Source: Gammaproteobacteria bacterium
GTDB taxonomy: Bacteria; Pseudomonadota; Gammaproteobacteria; Eutrophobiales; Eutrophobiaceae
Assembly (NCBI GenBank): GCA_028279365.1
Contig: JANQNX010000014.1
Coordinates: forward strand, 1-64,000
DNA: 64,000 nt
Direction of reading: 5' to 3'
The stretch's first letter is position 1; every line of letters begins with the position of its first letter. A model generated the notes under the pieces. That model had not been told where the DNA came from, did not search any database, and saw nothing but the letters and a program-made list of their open reading frames with translations. Shown here one piece after another: positions 28,991 through 38,168 of the stretch. The position numbers and the translations under genes are program-made.

Positions 28991-31900
28991 GTTGTGATTT
29001 GAAGGGAATCGTTGTTTGGTTACACTTCCCCTGTATCAAAGGCCGTTTATTAGTCCGTTGTGATTTGAAGGGAATCGTTGTTTGGTTACACTGATAAATC
29101 CATCGTCCGCAACTGTGATGTGTTGTGATTTGAAGGGAATCGTTGTTTGGTTACACTTGAATCTAAACTAGTATAAACAGGAGCTAAGTTGTGATTTGAA
29201 GGGAATCGTTGTTTGGTTACACTGTTCTGAATACTGCTGTGGCTCATTATATAGTTGTGATTTGAAGGGAATCGTTGTTTGGTTACACTCAATGTTATTA
29301 ATCATGATACCGGGAGAATGTTGTGATTTGAAGGGAATCGTTGTTTGGTTACACTACCATTCATCTTTATTGTTCAGTGCTAGGTGTTGTGATTTGAAGG
29401 GAATCGTTGTTTGGTTACACTCTGCGATTGCCTGTCTACTTCCCCGTACAGGTTGTGATTTGAAGGGAATCGTTGTTTGGTTACACTATCGACACGAGTA
29501 CACTGACGAACAGCATGGTTGTGATTTGAAGGGAATCGTTGTTTGGTTACACTCGGAGAACCCAAATTATGACGGAACAACTCGTTGTGATTTGAAGGGA
29601 ATCGTTGTTTGGTTACACTAGGGAGAACACAACATGTTGCAGCTGAACGGTTGTGATTTGAAGGGAATCGTTGTTTGGTTACACTCAGGTCTGGACGCCC
29701 GCCATAACCGAGCCAGTTGTGATTTGAAGGGAATCGTTGTTTGGTTACACTTCCAGGTAGCGCAAGGTCTCGCCGTCGATCGTTGTGATTTGAAGGGAAT
29801 CGTTGTTTGGTTACACTTACCACCATTACCTGAAACACCTAAAGTTAGTTGTGATTTGAAGGGAATCGTTGTTTGGTTACACTCAGTTGGTACTGCATCA
29901 GGTTCTGCTAATAGTTGTGATTTGAAGGGAATCGTTGTTTGGTTACACTTTTACAATGTGGAACAGTTGATGGAGAATAGTTGTGATTTGAAGGGAATCG
30001 TTGTTTGGTTACACTCACCGCCGGCGCAATACCTGATCGAAACACGTTGTGATTTGAAGGGAATCGTTGTTTGGTTACACTCGATGGATTTAAGCCGTGA
30101 CCTTGAGTTTTGTTGTGATTTGAAGGGAATCGTTGTTTGGTTACACTATTCTTTGTGAAAAACATAACGTACCTCCTGTTGTGATTTGAAGGGAATCGTT
30201 GTTTGGTTACACTAATCGCGCCGTAGGTCTCGATACCTTTGTCGTTGTGATTTGAAGGGAATCGTTGTTTGGTTACACTGAGCGAGACTGTAAAGCCTCC
30301 AAAACTCCGGTTGTGATTTGAAGGGAATCGTTGTTTGGTTACACTCCATAGGGGTTGGATAGCGCGTTTCGAGGGGTTGTGATTTGAAGGGAATCGTTGT
30401 TTGGTTACACTCGCATCTTGATATTGGCGATCAACCTGATTGTTGTGATTTGAAGGGAATCGTTGTTTGGTTACACTCAGTTGCTACCAGTATAAAGACG
30501 GACGTGAGTTGTGATTTGAAGGGAATCGTTGTTTGGTTACACTGACCGTTACACGTACTACTGGGGATTGACCGTTGTGATTTGAAGGGAATCGTTGTTT
30601 GGTTACACTAAAGAATTTTAGAAGCTTTAAACAACAAGGTTGTGATTTGAAGGGAATCGTTGTTTGGTTACACTACCGCCCACTTTGTTCATCGATGCCA
30701 GCATGTTGTGATTTGAAGGGAATCGTTGTTTGGTTACACTTTTGAGATTGACGTTAATCTATGATTGACAGTTGTGATTTGAAGGGAATCGTTGTTTGGT
30801 TACACTTTTCGTGCTTGTTGAATTGCGCGAGCAGTTGGTTGTGATTTGAAGGGAATCGTTGTTTGGTTACACTGTACTTGACATGAATACAATTGAAACA
30901 TTAGTTGTGATTTGAAGGGAATCGTTGTTTGGTTACACTTGATAGGAGTAGCATCAGCAAGCGCTGCCTGTTGTGATTTGAAGGGAATCGTTGTTTGGTT
31001 ACACTCACTTGTAAAAATTCGTATTGAACGTCTGTGTTGTGATTTGAAGGGAATCGTTGTTTGGTTACACTAAATTTGGCGCAGTCAGCGAGCGATAGGT
31101 GTTGTGATTTGAAGGGAATCGTTGTTTGGTTACACTAACATCCATTAAAGCGACATTTAAAAGCTAGTTGTGATTTGAAGGGAATCGTTGTTTGGTTACA
31201 CTCATACATACGCTCATCACTTCCATTCGTAGTTGTGATTTGAAGGGAATCGTTGTTTGGTTACACTTGTGTCATAATTGTTTATTCACCAATTCATGTT
31301 GTGATTTGAAGGGAATCGTTGTTTGGTTACACTTTCGCTGACACGTTAGTTTCATTATGGTTGTTGTGATTTGAAGGGAATCGTTGTTTGGTTACACTTA
31401 ATCTCTTTTTTATCAGGATGATTCACTGTTGTGATTTGAAGGGAATCGTTGTTTGGTTACACTCCCATGCAGCGGCGAGCCATGCTAGTAGTAGTTGTGA
31501 TTTGAAGGGAATCGTTGTTTGGTTACACTGATATTGGAATTCTCGCCTTCACCCATAGTGTTGTGATTTGAAGGGAATCGTTGTTTGGTTACACTCTGGG
31601 CTAATGTTGTAATAGGATGATGATTGTTGTGATTTGAAGGGAATCGTTGTTTGGTTACACTCCGTGAATTTTTGGACGCCAAAGAAGATCCGTTGTGATT
31701 TGAAGGGAATCGTTGTTTGGTTACACTACGTTGATGAATCAAGATATCACCGACGCGGTTGTGATTTGAAGGGAATCGTTGTTTGGTTACACTTAAAGGG
31801 CAAGTGTCAGTAGCAGGTTCAGGGTTGTGATTTGAAGGGAATCGTTGTTTGGTTACACTCAAATCAAAATAGTTATAGAACAACATACAGTTGTGATTTG

Positions 31901-33306
31901 AAGGGAATCGTTGTTTGGTTACACTACGACGCCGACATCATTCAGATGGAAGTAGTTGTGATTTGAAGGGAATCGTTGTTTGGTTACACTAACTAATGTA
32001 CCTGCTGATGTTGCTACACGTTGTGATTTGAAGGGAATCGTTGTTTGGTTACACTAATTGTTTTATCAGGATGATGCAGAAGAAGTTGTGATTTGAAGGG
32101 AATCGTTGTTTGGTTACACTACTGGTGCAGGGGATGGTGCTGCTATTTTTGTTGTGATTTGAAGGGAATCGTTGTTTGGTTACACTTAATACAAAATTCA
32201 GCAGCAAAGAAACATAGTTGTGATTTGAAGGGAATCGTTGTTTGGTTACACTAAATACTGATTTTTTGCAGCAAGATAAGTAGTTGTGATTTGAAGGGAA
32301 TCGTTGTTTGGTTACACTAATTCATTTTGTATAAGTTAATACCTTCAGTTGTGATTTGAAGGGAATCGTTGTTTGGTTACACTAACTACACGTAATGCAT
32401 GGGAATGTTTTAGTTGTGATTTGAAGGGAATCGTTGTTTGGTTACACTCGGTATCGGTCTTGGGGCCTATATGATTCTGTTGTGATTTGAAGGGAATCGT
32501 TGTTTGGTTACACTGGACAATGGGGACATTGCAATAGATCAATAGTTGTGATTTGAAGGGAATCGTTGTTTGGTTACACTGTGGAACTATAAATACAACA
32601 ACAGGTGTCAGTTGTGATTTGAAGGGAATCGTTGTTTGGTTACACTACGATTTATCAGAAGGTGCTGTAATGGGCGGTTGTGATTTGAAGGGAATCGTTG
32701 TTTGGTTACACTAATACGTCACTATGATGTTTACCGGTACGTGTTGTGATTTGAAGGGAATCGTTGTTTGGTTACACTGATGCCTTGCATACGCTCACCG
32801 GAGATACCGTTGTGATTTGAAGGGAATCGTTGTTTGGTTACACTATGCAAAAAATTGCCATGAGTCGAAATATGGTTGTGATTTGAAGGGAATCGTTGTT
32901 TGGTTACACTTAAATATTCGCTCGTCAATATATAAGGCTTGTTGTGATTTGAAGGGAATCGTTGTTTGGTTACACTTCGGCTTGCTGCCAGGCTTGTGCA
33001 AATTCTGTTGTGATTTGAAGGGAATCGTTGTTTGGTTACACTGGAGGGCGTTGCGTGGATAATATCGTCATTGTTGTGATTTGAAGGGAATCGTTGTTTG
33101 GTTACACTTTAGGGCCGGCCATCATGGCAATACACTTCGTTGTGATTTGAAGGGAATCGTTGTTTGGTTACACTACCTGCACCTAAAGGTATGTGGGAAT
33201 TAGCGTTGTGATTTGAAGGGAATCGTTGTTTGGTTACACTTTATTCCGATTTCATCAACCTTTAATTTTTGTTGTGATTTGAAGGGAATCGTTGTTTGGT
33301 TACACT
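28991..33306 (+). CRISPR. Type II-C CRISPR array: 66 identical 36-bp repeats, 65 spacers
   Basis: Counted by eye: repeats start at 28991, 29057, 29122 and so on to 33271. The repeat is 36 nt, begins GTTGTGATTTGAAGGG and ends GTTTGGTTACACT; all copies look identical, including both end copies. Spacers are 29-31 nt, mostly 30. The tracrRNA anti-repeat shows that the plus strand is the crRNA strand. Each repeat holds a promoter-like pair, TTGAAG (repeat positions 9-14) and TACACT (31-36), spaced 16 nt, as in Neisseria type II-C arrays where each spacer is transcribed from the preceding repeat. A hairpin with a T-rich tail follows the last repeat. The array lies beyond the 3' end of cas2 and points toward it. 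Confidence 0.99.
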
Positions 33307-33354: not shown

Positions 33355-33684
33355 TTAAAACATTTCCACTTGGGAAGGCGCCGATTCCGGCGCTTTTCTC
33401 ATTTTTCCATGGAAAACTTTCATTTTCGCATACTGAATATCCGTTAACGTCATAATCCTGACCTCACCATCATCGGGCAAAAAGGATTTTATCCTGCGGC
33501 GATGCACTTGCGCCTTTTCTTCATTCTCACAGTATCTCCCATAGACAGAATACTGCATCATTGAAAAACCATTATCCAGCAGTTTATTCCGGAATTCTGT
33601 ATAAGCCCTACGCGCCTCTTTCGAGTCAGTGGGTAAATCAAATAAGGCAATTAACCACACGGCCTGATAGGGCGAAATCGCCAT
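33355..33684 (-). CDS. cas2: CRISPR-associated endonuclease Cas2
   Basis: A 109-aa Cas2, the dimeric core of the spacer-integration complex. Ferredoxin-like fold with AVWLIALFDLPTDSKEARR (the Asp in the first strand is typical) and SMMQYSVYGRYCEN in the middle. Its ATG overlaps the cas1 stop by one base, so the two are coupled. Last gene of the cas9-cas1-cas2 operon; the array begins 48 nt past its stop. Confidence 0.95.
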   Translation of the reverse strand: MAISPYQAVWLIALFDLPTDSKEARRAYTEFRNKLLDNGFSMMQYSVYGRYCENEEKAQVHRRRIKSFLPDDGEVRIMTLTDIQYAKMKVFHGKMRKAPESAPSQVEMF

Positions 33685-34574
33685 TAAAAATCAGGTAGTG
33701 CAAGTAACTTTTCTTCTCCCTGAAATAGCTTGCCCAATGATTGGCTGGTTTTCTGGATTGCGCCTTGCAATGTCAGCATTTCCTTGTCCATAGTGACACG
33801 CCTCTCGACAATGTTCAGCAGGTTTGCACGAATTGTTTTATGCATTTCCTGTTCTGACCCATATTCTTTTACACATTCCCAAACATGTAAGTCCGCTATT
33901 GGACGAAACGGTTCCATGACATCGTCAGCCAGACAATAAGCGTTATAACGATTGTGATGATGAACGCCAATAGAGGGGTGCAGACCTGTTGCACAAAGCG
34001 AACGAGCAACCAGCGCACGAACAATCGCATAACAATAATTCAGATAGCGATTTTGATCATCGGCAAAACGATCCCGCTTAAAACCATCTTGCTCAAAGAG
34101 CTGACTCCAGTAACGCCTCGCCGCCTGTGCTTCAATATTATCCGGGTCGCCGGAACGGATCTTCTTGGCTAACACTTTTAGGCTCATATCCTTGCCGGTC
34201 AGGTCATTGAGCATTCTGGCTTGCATCATTACCTTGCAATAAATCAACTGTTTCCAGATATTTTTCTTCATGGGTGTCGTTGCGTTAATTTGGTGATCGA
34301 AACGTTCGGATTGTAGGGTGTTACTTTGCAATGGAAGAAACATACCATTAGGTTGGTGTTTTTCATCACTGCTAATCACCATGACATTGGCATCGAGTAG
34401 TTTGCCCAGGCAGGTCTGGGTAATCAGTGTTTGCGGATGATCGATAATCAAGGCAGACATATCTTCAATCGACACTGAACCAATGATTTCTTTGTCGCGT
34501 TCAATGATAAGCTGTTGATGCTTGAAATGCAGATAACAGCCCTCCGTGCCGATTTCGATAATCCGTTTGCTCAT
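33684..34574 (-). CDS. cas1: CRISPR-associated integrase Cas1 (type II)
   Basis: A 296-aa Cas1, the metal-dependent integrase that inserts spacers with Cas2. Characteristic parts: ALIIDHPQTLITQTCLGKLLDANV at the N-terminus, CATGLHPSIGVHHHNRYNAYCLADDVMEPFRP with the catalytic His and downstream acidic residues, and a helical C-terminus. It starts immediately after the cas9 stop (TAAATG), so translation is coupled. No csn2 or cas4 follows, which defines subtype II-C. Confidence 0.97.
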   Translation of the reverse strand: MSKRIIEIGTEGCYLHFKHQQLIIERDKEIIGSVSIEDMSALIIDHPQTLITQTCLGKLLDANVMVISSDEKHQPNGMFLPLQSNTLQSERFDHQINATTPMKKNIWKQLIYCKVMMQARMLNDLTGKDMSLKVLAKKIRSGDPDNIEAQAARRYWSQLFEQDGFKRDRFADDQNRYLNYCYAIVRALVARSLCATGLHPSIGVHHHNRYNAYCLADDVMEPFRPIADLHVWECVKEYGSEQEMHKTIRANLLNIVERRVTMDKEMLTLQGAIQKTSQSLGKLFQGEEKLLALPDF

Positions 34575-37500
34575 TTAAATAGCTCGTTCTTTTTTTATTT
34601 TTCCTAAACTGTTTATTTCTAGTAATCTAAGGTTTGTTTCTTTCAGTGAGTTCGCCGAAAAATTAATTTGTTTTTTCCAGTCTTTTATATTTGCATCTGT
34701 ATGTTCGCGAAAAATAATATTTTCATTCATATCCATTTTCTGAACGCGACAGACTTTTTCTTCGCCTTTATGAATGAGTTTGACCATGTCGTTAGGATGC
34801 AAGGCAGTCAAGAAGCGTTCATCGTTTTCAAATGCTGTTCTGATAACCGGTTCTTTACCATTACTTGCATTGCGTAATGTCGCTTCCAGCGTGCTGACGA
34901 CATACCCCTTCCACTTTTTATTGTCTTTTTTATCCAAGTACTCGACTAATTCCATATGATGGTTGCCCATTGTCCAGACATTCCTTCTTTTATCGTCAGA
35001 GTTGGGAAATATTTTTCCTATTGAGGTCACACTGCGGTTATAAACCAGTCGTACTTTTTTAATTTTTCTGAACTCTCCTTTTTTAGTTTTCATTTGAAAA
35101 GGATTGTCATCGTTTTTAAAAGCATCATTATAATTTTTTGAGTTTTTCAAATGCTCTTTAGCCAGTTCCCTAATTTTAGGGTCACGTATATGTTCCAGAT
35201 CGGATTCTTTCATATCAGATAATGACTTCCGGATAGCCACAACCGAAATACCTTTTTTATCTATCTCAGGTGTCAGGCTGTAAAGAAACTCTTTATGCAA
35301 GGCACCTTTAATCTTCCGCTGTGATTTGTGTGACACAATTATATTTTGAATGGTGTTTTCTGCCTGTTGTCGGATATCGGAAAAAGGTGGAGGATAGTCT
35401 TTGATTCTTAATTCGCCATGGCTATTGCTGCTGGTATAGGTATTAATCTTTTGTACTGCACTGAGGCTGGTATAGGCTACAACTAGAGCATCAATGGCAT
35501 GGTGGCGATGATCCAGCCGTGTTTTTTCACCGGAGACATCGAGAATATTATTTAACCCCCAGGCACGGCGTAACAGCGCTGTGGTACCCCCTTTGACGGG
35601 TTCGACTTTTATTCCTAATTGTTTTAAATAGTCCGCTGTCTTTCTGGCGATGTAACGGGTTTCGTTGAGTTGCTGGCTGACAAACTCATCCATATCTTTT
35701 ATGGCATTGGCGGAAAAGCGTTTGAACTTGGGATACGGCAGATTTTTGGCGCGTTGTAACATATCCGCATACTCAGACTCATTACCATGAAAGGCTTCCC
35801 ATGGGGTCTGATTACCTTTTTGTTTATTGTGATCCCTGTGACACAAGGTTTTGTTCATAAAACTATCATCAAGGCAACGTGAATACGGAATAATATGTTC
35901 TATCTCATAAACGGGTTGGGTAAATAACTCATGAACGCTGATTGCGTTGCCACTGAATGGACAGACATGTTCGCACTCTTGCCAGAGACGATATTTTAAT
36001 TTATCAGTTCTGGTCGGGTTAGGAATGCCGACTTCCTCTTTTAAAAACTGTTCCGCCTCCTGATTAGCTTCTTCATTCTTGCGTTGTTGTCTCTGATAGT
36101 CGTCGCGTTGTTTGGCATTCAGTTTTAGGTCGCGGGCCATTTCGATTCGAATCACATCCGGTTTACCGTATTGGCGAATAATCGCATTCACTACTTTACG
36201 TACCTGGAACAAGGCACGCTCCACCATTGGATTTCGCAAACCATCTGTGTCGATCAAGCTGCTGGTATGTTCGCCTCTTTTCTTGGCAGCAACACCAGGA
36301 AAAGGCAGTTGCTCCAGTGACTTCTCTTCCTGTGGCTTGGTATGTTCATAACCCGCCTTTTCACAGGCTTCGGCATAGTTATAACCACGTTCCAGACCGG
36401 TATCACCAAACTCTAAAAATTTAACGATATGACGCATCGCCTTTTGTGAAAGATGCATATAGCCTTTAGGCAATTCGCCACTTTTCTTGACTAACTTATC
36501 GATAGTTTCCTGCTCGAACTTCCATTTGCGGATAAGACGATTGCGCAGCGCACGGTCTTCATTAATATAAACGAGATCATTAATCAGCTGTTCTTTATCT
36601 CTATCAGATAAATCTTTCCATTGTTTGGCGCCTAATGCGGGTTTGATTAATGAAACGGTCTGGTTGCCTAACATGCCCGACTTTCTGACCTTCTCAAGGT
36701 TAATTTTGTCAGACTCAAATATGCCAATCAGGTCTCGAACCTTTTCCCAACTAAGCTGTTTCTTGTCCTTTAGAGCTTCATAAAGCGTTCTTCTTTCCTT
36801 ATCAGTCAGAAAACGCTCTGTGCCATCACCCAATAATAATTTCAGATTATTAATATTGCTCCAAAGACGAAATTCCTGTGCAATCAACGCCGCCTTGGCG
36901 GCACGTTTGCGATCCTTTTCAAAATCACAATACCCCACGAGATGTTTTTGTATCTTTAACGGACGTTGAAAAAAGATAGCGTCATAGATAGCTTTCCTAG
37001 TTGCAACATTAAGCAGATCGGGATGATGTTGTTTCTGCGCAGACCAGATGTGTTCAAACTCTTCTTCAAACATCTCCCTTGCGGTGTAACGGCCTCGAAT
37101 GCGTTGCTCATGCGGGTCGAGACTATTCAGGTATGCACCAAGCGTTTTAAAATTACCCTTTTCTATCTCTTGTATGATCTCAGTAATACCCTGGGCAACC
37201 TTGCCGTCTTTTTCATCACCGGTTTTACGATTGGAGAGATAACCTCGGCGTTGGCCCAAATGATAAAGTGCGCGGCCAACCTGGAAGGGTTCCAGCTTTT
37301 CGCTCAATGCAGCCGCGCGCAAGTCATAAGGGTTGGTTGTCTGTAAAAGTTTTTCTAACGTTGGTTCGTCAGCAGGGAGAAGATTAAATTCGATTAATAA
37401 ATATTTTAGTTTTTCTTTACGTCTTGTCCTGCGATAGGTTTGGCGGCGAATACTGCGGGCGATGCGTCGGTCCTGGTTTAGCGATTTCTCGCCACGGCTC

Positions 37501-37625
37501 CGATCCATCCCTTCCGGAAAGATACGTACGCCTGCATCAATGATATTGGTCGGTTCGGTCAAACACCAACCGATAGAAGATGTACCTAGATCCAATCCAA
37601 GAATCTGTATGTTCTCATTAACCAT
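34575..37625 (-). CDS. cas9: Cas9 endonuclease, type II-C
   Basis: RNA-guided DNA nuclease of 1016 aa, in the size range of compact II-C enzymes. RuvC-I: LGLDLGTSSIGW with Asp12. Arg-rich bridge helix: QDRRIARSIRRQTYRRTRRKE. RuvC-II: IRIEMARDLKLN near residue 495. HNH: YEIEHIIPYSRCLDDSFMNK with His577, followed by NKQKGNQTPWEAF. RuvC-III: RLDHRHHAIDALVV near residue 710. The PAM-interacting C-terminal part is present, and all catalytic residues look intact. ATG at 37625 with GGGAA upstream. First gene of cas9-cas1-cas2; its predicted promoter lies about 190 nt upstream. The PAM cannot be read from the sequence. Confidence 0.98.
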   Translation of the reverse strand: MVNENIQILGLDLGTSSIGWCLTEPTNIIDAGVRIFPEGMDRSRGEKSLNQDRRIARSIRRQTYRRTRRKEKLKYLLIEFNLLPADEPTLEKLLQTTNPYDLRAAALSEKLEPFQVGRALYHLGQRRGYLSNRKTGDEKDGKVAQGITEIIQEIEKGNFKTLGAYLNSLDPHEQRIRGRYTAREMFEEEFEHIWSAQKQHHPDLLNVATRKAIYDAIFFQRPLKIQKHLVGYCDFEKDRKRAAKAALIAQEFRLWSNINNLKLLLGDGTERFLTDKERRTLYEALKDKKQLSWEKVRDLIGIFESDKINLEKVRKSGMLGNQTVSLIKPALGAKQWKDLSDRDKEQLINDLVYINEDRALRNRLIRKWKFEQETIDKLVKKSGELPKGYMHLSQKAMRHIVKFLEFGDTGLERGYNYAEACEKAGYEHTKPQEEKSLEQLPFPGVAAKKRGEHTSSLIDTDGLRNPMVERALFQVRKVVNAIIRQYGKPDVIRIEMARDLKLNAKQRDDYQRQQRKNEEANQEAEQFLKEEVGIPNPTRTDKLKYRLWQECEHVCPFSGNAISVHELFTQPVYEIEHIIPYSRCLDDSFMNKTLCHRDHNKQKGNQTPWEAFHGNESEYADMLQRAKNLPYPKFKRFSANAIKDMDEFVSQQLNETRYIARKTADYLKQLGIKVEPVKGGTTALLRRAWGLNNILDVSGEKTRLDHRHHAIDALVVAYTSLSAVQKINTYTSSNSHGELRIKDYPPPFSDIRQQAENTIQNIIVSHKSQRKIKGALHKEFLYSLTPEIDKKGISVVAIRKSLSDMKESDLEHIRDPKIRELAKEHLKNSKNYNDAFKNDDNPFQMKTKKGEFRKIKKVRLVYNRSVTSIGKIFPNSDDKRRNVWTMGNHHMELVEYLDKKDNKKWKGYVVSTLEATLRNASNGKEPVIRTAFENDERFLTALHPNDMVKLIHKGEEKVCRVQKMDMNENIIFREHTDANIKDWKKQINFSANSLKETNLRLLEINSLGKIKKERAI

Positions 37626-37811
37626 CCTTATCTGTTCCCTGAAATATTTGTTCTAATATATTTTTAGTCCATTTCTTTATAAAAGTAAAAAAATCAATAT
37701 GTTGAGGTCGACCAATTTTAATATAGCCTGGCATAGAGTCTTTCGAGGCTTTAATTGAAATATGAACTTCAATTTCTTCAATATTTGATTTTCTAGATTA
37801 TTTTGCAAATT

Positions 37812-37840
37812 ATTATATTTTGGATATTAAGAATATTGAA
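37812..37840 (-). promoter_or_regulatory. Predicted cas9 promoter
   Basis: On the minus strand a perfect TATAAT -10 box (37817-37812) is preceded at 17 nt by a weak -35, TTCAAT (37840-37835). Transcription would start near 37805 and leave an untranslated leader of about 180 nt before cas9. The -35 region overlaps that of the divergent orphan RNA gene. Motif-based prediction only. Confidence 0.5.
37817..37828 (+). other. Candidate target site of the orphan guide in the cas9 promoter
   Basis: ATTTTGGATATT here equals the last 12 nt before the orphan repeat (ATTTTGGATGTT, 37902-37913) except for one base. Farther upstream the similarity stops. The site lies between the predicted -10 and -35 boxes of the cas9 promoter. 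The bases 3' of it, where a Cas9 PAM would be, read AAGAATAT. Confidence 0.45.
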
Positions 37841-37863
37841 ATAATGCTCTCAGATGTTATATT
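37836..37863 (+). promoter_or_regulatory. Predicted promoter of the orphan crRNA-like RNA
   Basis: TTGAAA (37836-37841), 16-nt spacer, TATATT (37858-37863): five of six matches in each box. Start predicted near 37870. Confidence 0.55.
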
Positions 37864-37869
37864 TGTCAA

Positions 37870-37985
37870 TAAGCATCAAAAAGAACTCATTTCCGTGAGC
37901 CATTTTGGATGTTGTTGTGATTTGAAAGGAATCGTTGTTTGGTTACACGCAAAAGGCAGATATTGATCGTATCTGCCTTTTTCTT
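37870..37985 (+). ncRNA. Orphan single-repeat crRNA-like RNA
   Basis: A predicted transcript of about 115 nt: some 43 nt of guide-like leader (37871-37913), one CRISPR repeat copy (37914-37948) and a strong terminator hairpin (37951-37981). The repeat copy differs from the array consensus at repeat position 14 (G to A) and has lost the last T of the internal TACACT box. The change at 14 makes a Watson-Crick pair with the tracrRNA where array repeats form a G-U pair. Its last 12 guide nt match the cas9 promoter, 11 of 12. It may load onto Cas9 with the tracrRNA as a repressive guide, as known in principle for Streptococcus tracr-L and Francisella scaRNA. No expression evidence. Confidence 0.6.
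37951..37985 (+). terminator. Terminator of the orphan crRNA-like RNA
   Basis: A 12-bp stem, AAAAGGCAGATA (37951-37962) with TATCTGCCTTTT (37970-37981), loop TTGATCG, followed by a T-rich tail. It starts two bases after the repeat copy ends. Confidence 0.88.
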
Positions 37986-38029: not shown

Positions 38030-38035
38030 TATACT
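38030..38035 (+). promoter_or_regulatory. -10 box of the tracrRNA gene
   Basis: TATACT, 8 nt before the first base of the anti-repeat at 38043, which places the start at the anti-repeat itself. No convincing -35 box is seen; TTGGCG at 38021 is too close. Confidence 0.5.
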
Positions 38036-38041
38036 CTAAAT

Positions 38042-38168
38042 CTGTAACCAAACAACGGTTCCTTTCTTACCACAATAAAACGGACACCGTTGCAGGCTCT
38101 GAAGCATGCTTCAACCTTATCGCCCGAGGGCACATAGAAGAACCCCAGCTTGATCACTGGGGTTTTTT
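38042..38168 (+). ncRNA. tracrRNA of the type II-C system
   Basis: The anti-repeat (38043-38075) is complementary to the array repeat: 15 nt of perfect pairing (TGTAACCAAACAACG), then a region with G-U pairs and three mismatches that would form a bulge, then CACAA pairing with the 5' end of the repeat. After it come ATAA, a short hairpin AACGG-ACA-CCGTT (38079-38091), GAAG-CATG-CTTC (38101-38112), a GCCC/GGGC element near 38122-38131 and the terminator. This order matches Neisseria-type tracrRNAs (anti-repeat, AATAA, nexus-like hairpins, terminator). It lies upstream of cas9 on the opposite strand and fixes the crRNA strand as plus. Confidence 0.9.
38139..38167. terminator. Terminator shared by tracrRNA and the convergent gene
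   Basis: AACCCCAG (38141-38148) pairs with CTGGGGTT (38157-38164), then a run of T. The last codons and stop of the minus-strand gene at 38154 lie inside this hairpin, so both transcripts end in it. Confidence 0.88.

Follow-up and report, generated by a model that had tools for sequence, protein, structure and literature searches.

A crRNA-like element upstream of a type II-C cas9 gene, and its counterparts in scattered lineages, carry guides that match the cas9 promoter region

RNA-guided autorepression of cas genes is already known from tracr-L in type II-A systems and from CreR in types I and V-A, and the candidate type II-C version described here appears to be new. In tracr-L, reported by Workman and colleagues in 2021, a match of about 11 nt beside a PAM directs Cas9 to the cas promoter of its own locus; tracr-L is reported for some II-A systems only and is stated to be absent from other subtypes (PMC8616872, PMC11417352). 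CreR RNAs, the cas-regulating RNAs of mini-CRISPRs, have been described for types I-B, I-E, and V-A (PMC13131331, PMC12737573), and their action is relieved by competing crRNAs or anti-CRISPRs (PMC12737573). The scaRNA of Francisella novicida, a type II-B system studied by Ratner et al. in 2019, represses without cutting through 9 to 15 bp of DNA pairing, as cited in a later paper (PMC13431127). In Neisseria, scaRNA acts on efeO mRNA, with no sequence-guided DNA target found; among the transcripts tested, it formed a complex with efeO only and none with cas9 (PMC13431127). Among II-C systems, scaRNAs have been predicted in Neisseria and Pasteurella, where they are located upstream of the array and not in the cas9 promoter (PMC6199352). 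Finally, II-C arrays can give rise to an extraneous crRNA, which comes from a repeat lacking a normal spacer and is able to load Cas9 (PMC12080349). In the open-access literature, we found no report of a guide that targets the cas9 promoter in a II-C system.

The window, by which we mean the whole 64,000-nucleotide stretch of DNA analyzed, contains a CRISPR-Cas locus with the following features.

28991 to 33306, plus strand: CRISPR array of 66 repeats and 65 spacers, with plus as the crRNA strand
33355 to 33684, minus strand: cas2 (TIGR01573, E = 2.3e-21)
33684 to 34574, minus strand: type II cas1 (TIGR03639, E = 1.4e-82)
34575 to 37625, minus strand: cas9, 1,016 amino acids (TIGR01865, E = 5.4e-215)
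38030 to 38035, plus strand: tracrRNA -10 box TATACT, read from the sequence, with a start expected near 38042
38041 to 38168, plus strand: tracrRNA, with an anti-repeat (38041 to 38076) that pairs with the array repeat, stem-loops, and a terminator (38137 to 38168)

Neither csn2 nor cas4 was seen in the cas9-cas1-cas2 operon, and the system is therefore assigned to type II-C, with cas9, cas1, and cas2 as the only cas genes alongside a tracrRNA and an array. The HNH and RuvC columns of the window Cas9 are invariant in an alignment with its relatives, and the enzyme is presumably catalytically intact. A strong -35 box was looked for upstream of TATACT and not found, and an Rfam search returned no match. 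The 65 array spacers were compared with phage and plasmid collections with the aim of finding the PAM, and this gave no convincing match.

Between cas9 and the tracrRNA lies a lone CRISPR repeat, here called the orphan repeat, surrounded by the parts of a small transcription unit.

37836 to 37863, plus strand: predicted orphan RNA promoter TTGAAA-16 nt-TATATT, a consensus match, with a start expected near 37870
37890 to 37913, plus strand: guide part, 24 nt adjoining the orphan repeat
37902 to 37913, plus strand: guide seed ATTTTGGATGTT, the 12 nt directly before the orphan repeat
37914 to 37949, plus strand: orphan CRISPR repeat GTTGTGATTTGAAAGGAATCGTTGTTTGGTTACACG
37951 to 37985, plus strand: predicted intrinsic terminator of the orphan RNA, 13 pairs (37951 to 37981) followed by a T run

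An earlier, sequence-only reading of this DNA had proposed a lone repeat upstream of cas9 with TTGAAA-16-TATATT boxes and a strong terminator, and all of these parts were located. On the plus strand, the order upstream of cas9 is promoter-like pair, guide, lone repeat, terminator, tracrRNA -10 box, anti-repeat, and tracrRNA body. A search of the 3.14-Mb genome found the orphan repeat to be the sole copy outside the 66-repeat array, from which it is 4.6 kb distant. The element thus combines a crRNA-like unit outside the main array with a tracrRNA-pairing repeat-like segment, its own predicted promoter, and a terminator. The orphan and array repeats differ at two positions, G14A and T36G. Through G14A, one of the pairs formed with the anti-repeat changes from G-U to A-U. 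The predicted energy of the duplex with the anti-repeat is -45.0 kcal/mol for the orphan repeat; the array repeat gives -44.7 and shuffled sequences -14.4 ± 2.7. II-C array repeats carry a -10 box at their 3' end, and T36G would remove the T that completes it.

For the window, the terminator and a gap of 93 nt led us to reject the reading of the orphan repeat as only the promoter of the tracrRNA. That reading may apply to a second repeat-like piece (TTGACC...TATCCT) seen in two loci of the survey described below, L188 and L247, at the expected place of the tracrRNA promoter, between the orphan region and the anti-repeat. The tracrRNA promoter of these loci may derive from a repeat, given the -10 box at the 3' end of II-C repeats.

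The guide seed finds its match in the region upstream of cas9, where four further features are relevant.

37812 to 37839, minus strand: alternative cas9-directed promoter, TCAATA, 16 nt, TATAAT (37817 to 37812), 9 of 12 consensus positions with a loose -35
37817 to 37828, plus strand: target site (protospacer seed) ATTTTGGATATT, identical to the guide seed at 11 of 12 positions
37829 to 37838, plus strand: flank at the PAM position, AAGAATATTG, which fits NRRNNT
37841 to 37869, minus strand: best cas9-directed promoter, TTGACA (37869 to 37864), 17 nt, CATTAT (37846 to 37841), 10 of 12 consensus positions

The Cas9 seed must be anchored at the repeat junction, and the match of the 12 nt before the repeat was borne out, with a sole mismatch at position 3, counting from the repeat, where the guide has G and the target A. 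The accompanying estimate that so good a match arises by chance about once in 1,000 was optimistic: 36 of 6,000 random genomic 20-mers (0.6%) score as well as the window guide, and a within-region null built from the remaining 20-mers of that region gives a p value of 0.011 to 0.015. When the NRRNNT flank is also required, 3 of 6,000 random genomic 20-mers (0.05%) reach the window score. None of the 65 window array spacers does so. Taken alone, then, the window match is moderately unlikely. The guide is partially complementary to its cognate cas promoter beside a putative PAM, itself read from the 16 loci presented below.

Promoter calls in this work are consensus matches. The sequence-only reading had placed the target between the -10 and -35 boxes of a cas9 promoter; the TATAAT box of that promoter exists, and the target site touches it, but its -35 is weak and TTGACA-17-CATTAT scores better. 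The latter, rather than the TATAAT box, is most likely the cas9 promoter; its start is expected near 37834, which puts the target site just inside the predicted cas9 transcript. Both candidate promoters would fall under the footprint of a Cas9 bound at the target site. The predicted 5' untranslated stretch of cas9 (37626 to 37834) is unusually long, about 180 to 210 nt going by the predicted promoters, and AT-rich.

The window element resembles each of the known systems in part. Like CreR, it comprises a crRNA-like RNA outside the array that is partially complementary to a cas promoter and is predicted to use the system's own effector, and a response to crRNA load and anti-CRISPRs is expected of it. 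Whereas CreR belongs to types I and V-A, the window element, a candidate repressor, belongs to a II-C Cas9, and its guide needs a separate tracrRNA. Because a cas9-cas1-cas2 operon with a tracrRNA is of type II-C, this is not the CreR of I-B, I-E, or V-A; we file the element as a candidate that works like CreR without being the CreR of the described subtypes. It shares with tracr-L a match of about 11 nt to the cas promoter beside a PAM-like flank. However, tracr-L is one long RNA, while in the window, guide and tracrRNA are separated by a predicted terminator, with read-through possible; moreover, tracr-L loci are II-A, and the window operon is cas9-cas1-cas2, with csn2 not seen adjacent. The extraneous-crRNA repeat belongs to an array, in contrast to the window orphan, which stands 4.6 kb off and has a guide matched to cas9. 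Like scaRNA, finally, the predicted product is a small RNA from outside the array with a repeat-like part that pairs with the tracrRNA, but scaRNA targets are other genes and the window guide matches the cas9 promoter.

This last likeness raises the question of whether the RNA works through tracrRNA and Cas9 on other genes as its real targets. The general make-up is common to the orphan RNA and Francisella scaRNA, and II-C scaRNAs have been predicted in Neisseria and Pasteurella (PMC6199352). Nevertheless, a genome-wide search for seed plus PAM gave 7 matches against 6 for a reversed-pattern control, which is no excess; 6 of the 7 fall within reading frames, the cas9 site being the exception, and no second promoter-located target of the window guide was found in that search. 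Since the recurrent match across 16 loci is also to cas9, we regard other genes as the real targets as highly improbable.

No relatives emerged from the genome collection when Cas9 alone served as a back-translated query, and a search for the anti-repeat pattern through the order to which the window belongs matched only the window itself. An alignment query against the GTDB set then yielded 80 loci. With loci from gammaproteobacteria, from the family of genome G277, from the phylum, and from the families of G608 and G578, the survey comprised 140 distinct Cas9 loci, nearly all II-C and many from metagenome assemblies; 103 had an array repeat and 98 a recognizable anti-repeat. Among the Cas9s collected, the one nearest to that of the window is only 42% identical, and covariation was therefore tested across II-C as a whole and not in close relatives.

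In most surveyed loci, the anti-repeat lies less than 150 bp from cas9 with nothing between. In 16 loci, the interval from cas9 to the anti-repeat contains a lone repeat on the same strand as the tracrRNA; these are the window and 15 others spread over gammaproteobacteria, alphaproteobacteria, and one planctomycete:

L053/L092, G277, JAUVOQ010000003.1
L183, G475
L089, Gsub, JYIN01000009.1
L052, G375
L130, Porphyrobacter, JACESM010000005.1
L138, Sphingomonas, NZ_SCNL01000007.1
L233, G987
L238, G1088
L230, G906
L231, G1095
L242, G879
L144, Aquamicrobium, NZ_LBCQ02000001.1
L188, G578
L122, Marinosulfonomonas, NVTS01000125.1
L124, planctomycete, JAKFWC010000009.1

The anti-repeat lies more than 200 bp from cas9 in 22 loci, of which 16 have the orphan; no orphan was found among the others surveyed. 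Spaced anti-repeats without a convincing orphan match were set aside in L186, L145, L237, L113, L240, and L247, as was L155, where a formally low p value came from a poly-T artefact outside the anti-repeat. Two viral contigs from IMG/VR (L146 and L147) encode a II-C cas9 with an anti-repeat and have arrays of 15 to 17 repeats.

On a Cas9 tree of 98 systems, the trait needs at least 10 changes, and the window branches alone and deep. The Cas9 of L185 is 87% identical to that of L130, yet L185 lacks the element. Together, these observations imply recurrent gain, loss, or both.

In all 16 loci, the guide adjoining the orphan repeat matches the region upstream of its own cas9, with the match anchored at the repeat junction. 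Mismatch-free matches of 10 to 13 nt occur in 10 loci, and 5 have 11 to 12 nt with one mismatch, at position 3 in the window, L122, L230, and L231 and at position 5 in L138; L242 matches at 16 of 20 positions. By one fixed procedure, 13 loci including the window gave p values of 0.003 to 0.045 against the other 20-mers of their own region, while spurious repeat hits in the same scan had p values above 0.16. So did L242, a clear orphan with seed mismatches. L230, L231, and L242 were recognized by eye, and their matches are weaker or have more mismatches (p = 0.057, p = 0.036, and 4 of 890, respectively). Across 15 loci (all but L242), 343 array spacers all score below the orphan of their own locus, and some 2,000 guide tests over 103 loci, mostly of array spacers, gave five genuine scores of at least 10, none with NRRNNT. 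Guide sequences differ from locus to locus and each still matches, which means that guide and site change together; the covariation of seed and promoter site that the sequence-only reading had called for is thus found across II-C. The window site lies on the strand opposite to that of most other loci, as do those of L144, L188, L122, and L242.

A few guides have peculiarities of their own. That of L242 resembles its cas9-upstream site far past the usual 10 to 12 nt, with mismatches at positions 3, 5, and 14, and the element was perhaps freshly copied from the promoter and then detuned by mismatches. In the related loci L052, L053, L089, and L183, the guide has one extra base after a 10-nt seed, and then ATA matches once more, which looks like an insertion favored by selection because it halts pairing.

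The sites of the Thioglobaceae group, our inferred name for the family of G277, bear on where such guides act. The seeds of its four loci (TCTTATAGTT, CCTAATAGTT, CTCAATAGTT, and CTTCCTAGTA) each match 10 of 10 positions of their own promoter region, and three of the four sites run into the -35 box of a TTGAAA-16/17 nt-TATAAT promoter reading to cas9. In the window, the target and its PAM lie directly against the TTGAAA box of the orphan promoter, with the flank (37829 to 37838) extending to that -35 box at 37836, and the guide might chiefly limit its own promoter. The four Thioglobaceae-group sites, however, are at a distance from the probable promoter of the orphan and on or beside cas9-directed boxes, and we judge such a main role quite unlikely.

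The arrangement of the loci also bears on whether guide and tracrRNA form one molecule. The order in tracr-L is guide, repeat-like segment, and anti-repeat, and the guide-repeat-antirepeat-tracr order found here is the same. Read-through could fuse guide, orphan repeat, and tracrRNA into a natural single guide, a long RNA that represses cas9 as Streptococcus tracr-L does. The predicted fold of the read-through RNA has the two repeats paired in cis, and most alphaproteobacterial loci have no terminator between the parts and a gap of just 8 to 70 nt, so that a joined, tracr-L-like RNA is possible there. In the window, on the other hand, the 13-pair terminator and the -10 box at 38030 to 38035 separate guide from tracrRNA, and L053 likewise has a terminator between orphan and tracrRNA, so that two RNAs are expected in both. 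A fused RNA therefore seems unlikely for the window, and its terminator and the tracrRNA's own -10 box support the earlier proposal of a separate crRNA-like RNA.

Pairing ends abruptly, after 10 to 12 nt. All 16 guides agree with their sites at positions 1, 2, 4, and 6 to 10; the count falls to 11 at position 11 and to 5 at position 12, and beyond that identity is about 25%. Identity in the first ten columns is partly due to the selection of matches, but the abrupt end is not. An NRRNNT flank is present in 14 of 16 loci with 1.3 expected, and in 13 of 15 without the window, although the motif was read from the same loci on which it is scored. A motif from the other 15 loci alone still fits the AAGAAT of the window. 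In four alphaproteobacterial loci, T6 of NRRNNT begins a -35-like TTGA; because T6 partly coincides with -35 boxes, the purines at positions 2 and 3 are the safer part of the motif. The sudden end of pairing and the shared flank fit Cas9 binding without cutting.

The same data speak to the possibility that the element is a remnant of a dead array or an old leader, its seed match being chance or the leftover of a self-derived spacer. Orphan repeats have decayed in L052, L230, and L231, and the window match alone has a p value of only about 0.006 to 0.015. Still, the window orphan keeps full anti-repeat pairing along with a promoter and terminator, the guides match in 16 of 16 loci where spacers do not, and neutral decay would not stop pairing at a common 10 to 12 nt in unrelated loci. 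We consider a remnant very unlikely.

We propose instead that a crRNA-like RNA very probably guides tracrRNA-Cas9 to the promoter of cas9 itself, where pairing is too short for cleavage and cas9 is repressed as a result. From the observed parts, match, recurrence, covarying guides, flank, and sharp end of pairing, we infer transcription, loading, binding, repression, and relief. The element's own promoter, guide, single repeat, and terminator would yield a short crRNA-like RNA transcribed from near 37870, the repeat of which would pair with the ordinary tracrRNA and load Cas9. At the cas9 transcription start, beside the PAM, the guide seed would then pair over about 12 bp with its one mismatch (position 3), which should be enough for binding and too little for cutting. 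A Cas9 bound at its own start without cutting would block its own transcription, and the loop would open when many crRNAs or an anti-CRISPR draw Cas9 off the orphan guide.

Recurrence with different yet matching letters suggests an RNA thermostat not described before, which would keep these Cas9s in check. Our confidence is evenly balanced on a broader reading, in which II-C Cas9 evolved RNA-guided self-repression many times, in separate crRNA-like forms (the window and L053) and joined tracr-L-like forms (alphaproteobacteria). In the window, where the target abuts the guide's own promoter, Cas9 would on that reading restrain its own expression together with that of its guide.

The guide-target pairs found here offer a clue to the PAM of II-C Cas9s that are otherwise uncharacterized, and natural short guides from these loci should bind without cutting. 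If true, the proposal predicts the response of such systems to anti-CRISPRs and to a growing array. It would also imply that control over their own dose evolves repeatedly in CRISPR effectors, here in II-C systems of scattered lineages under a pairing limit of 10 to 12 bp.
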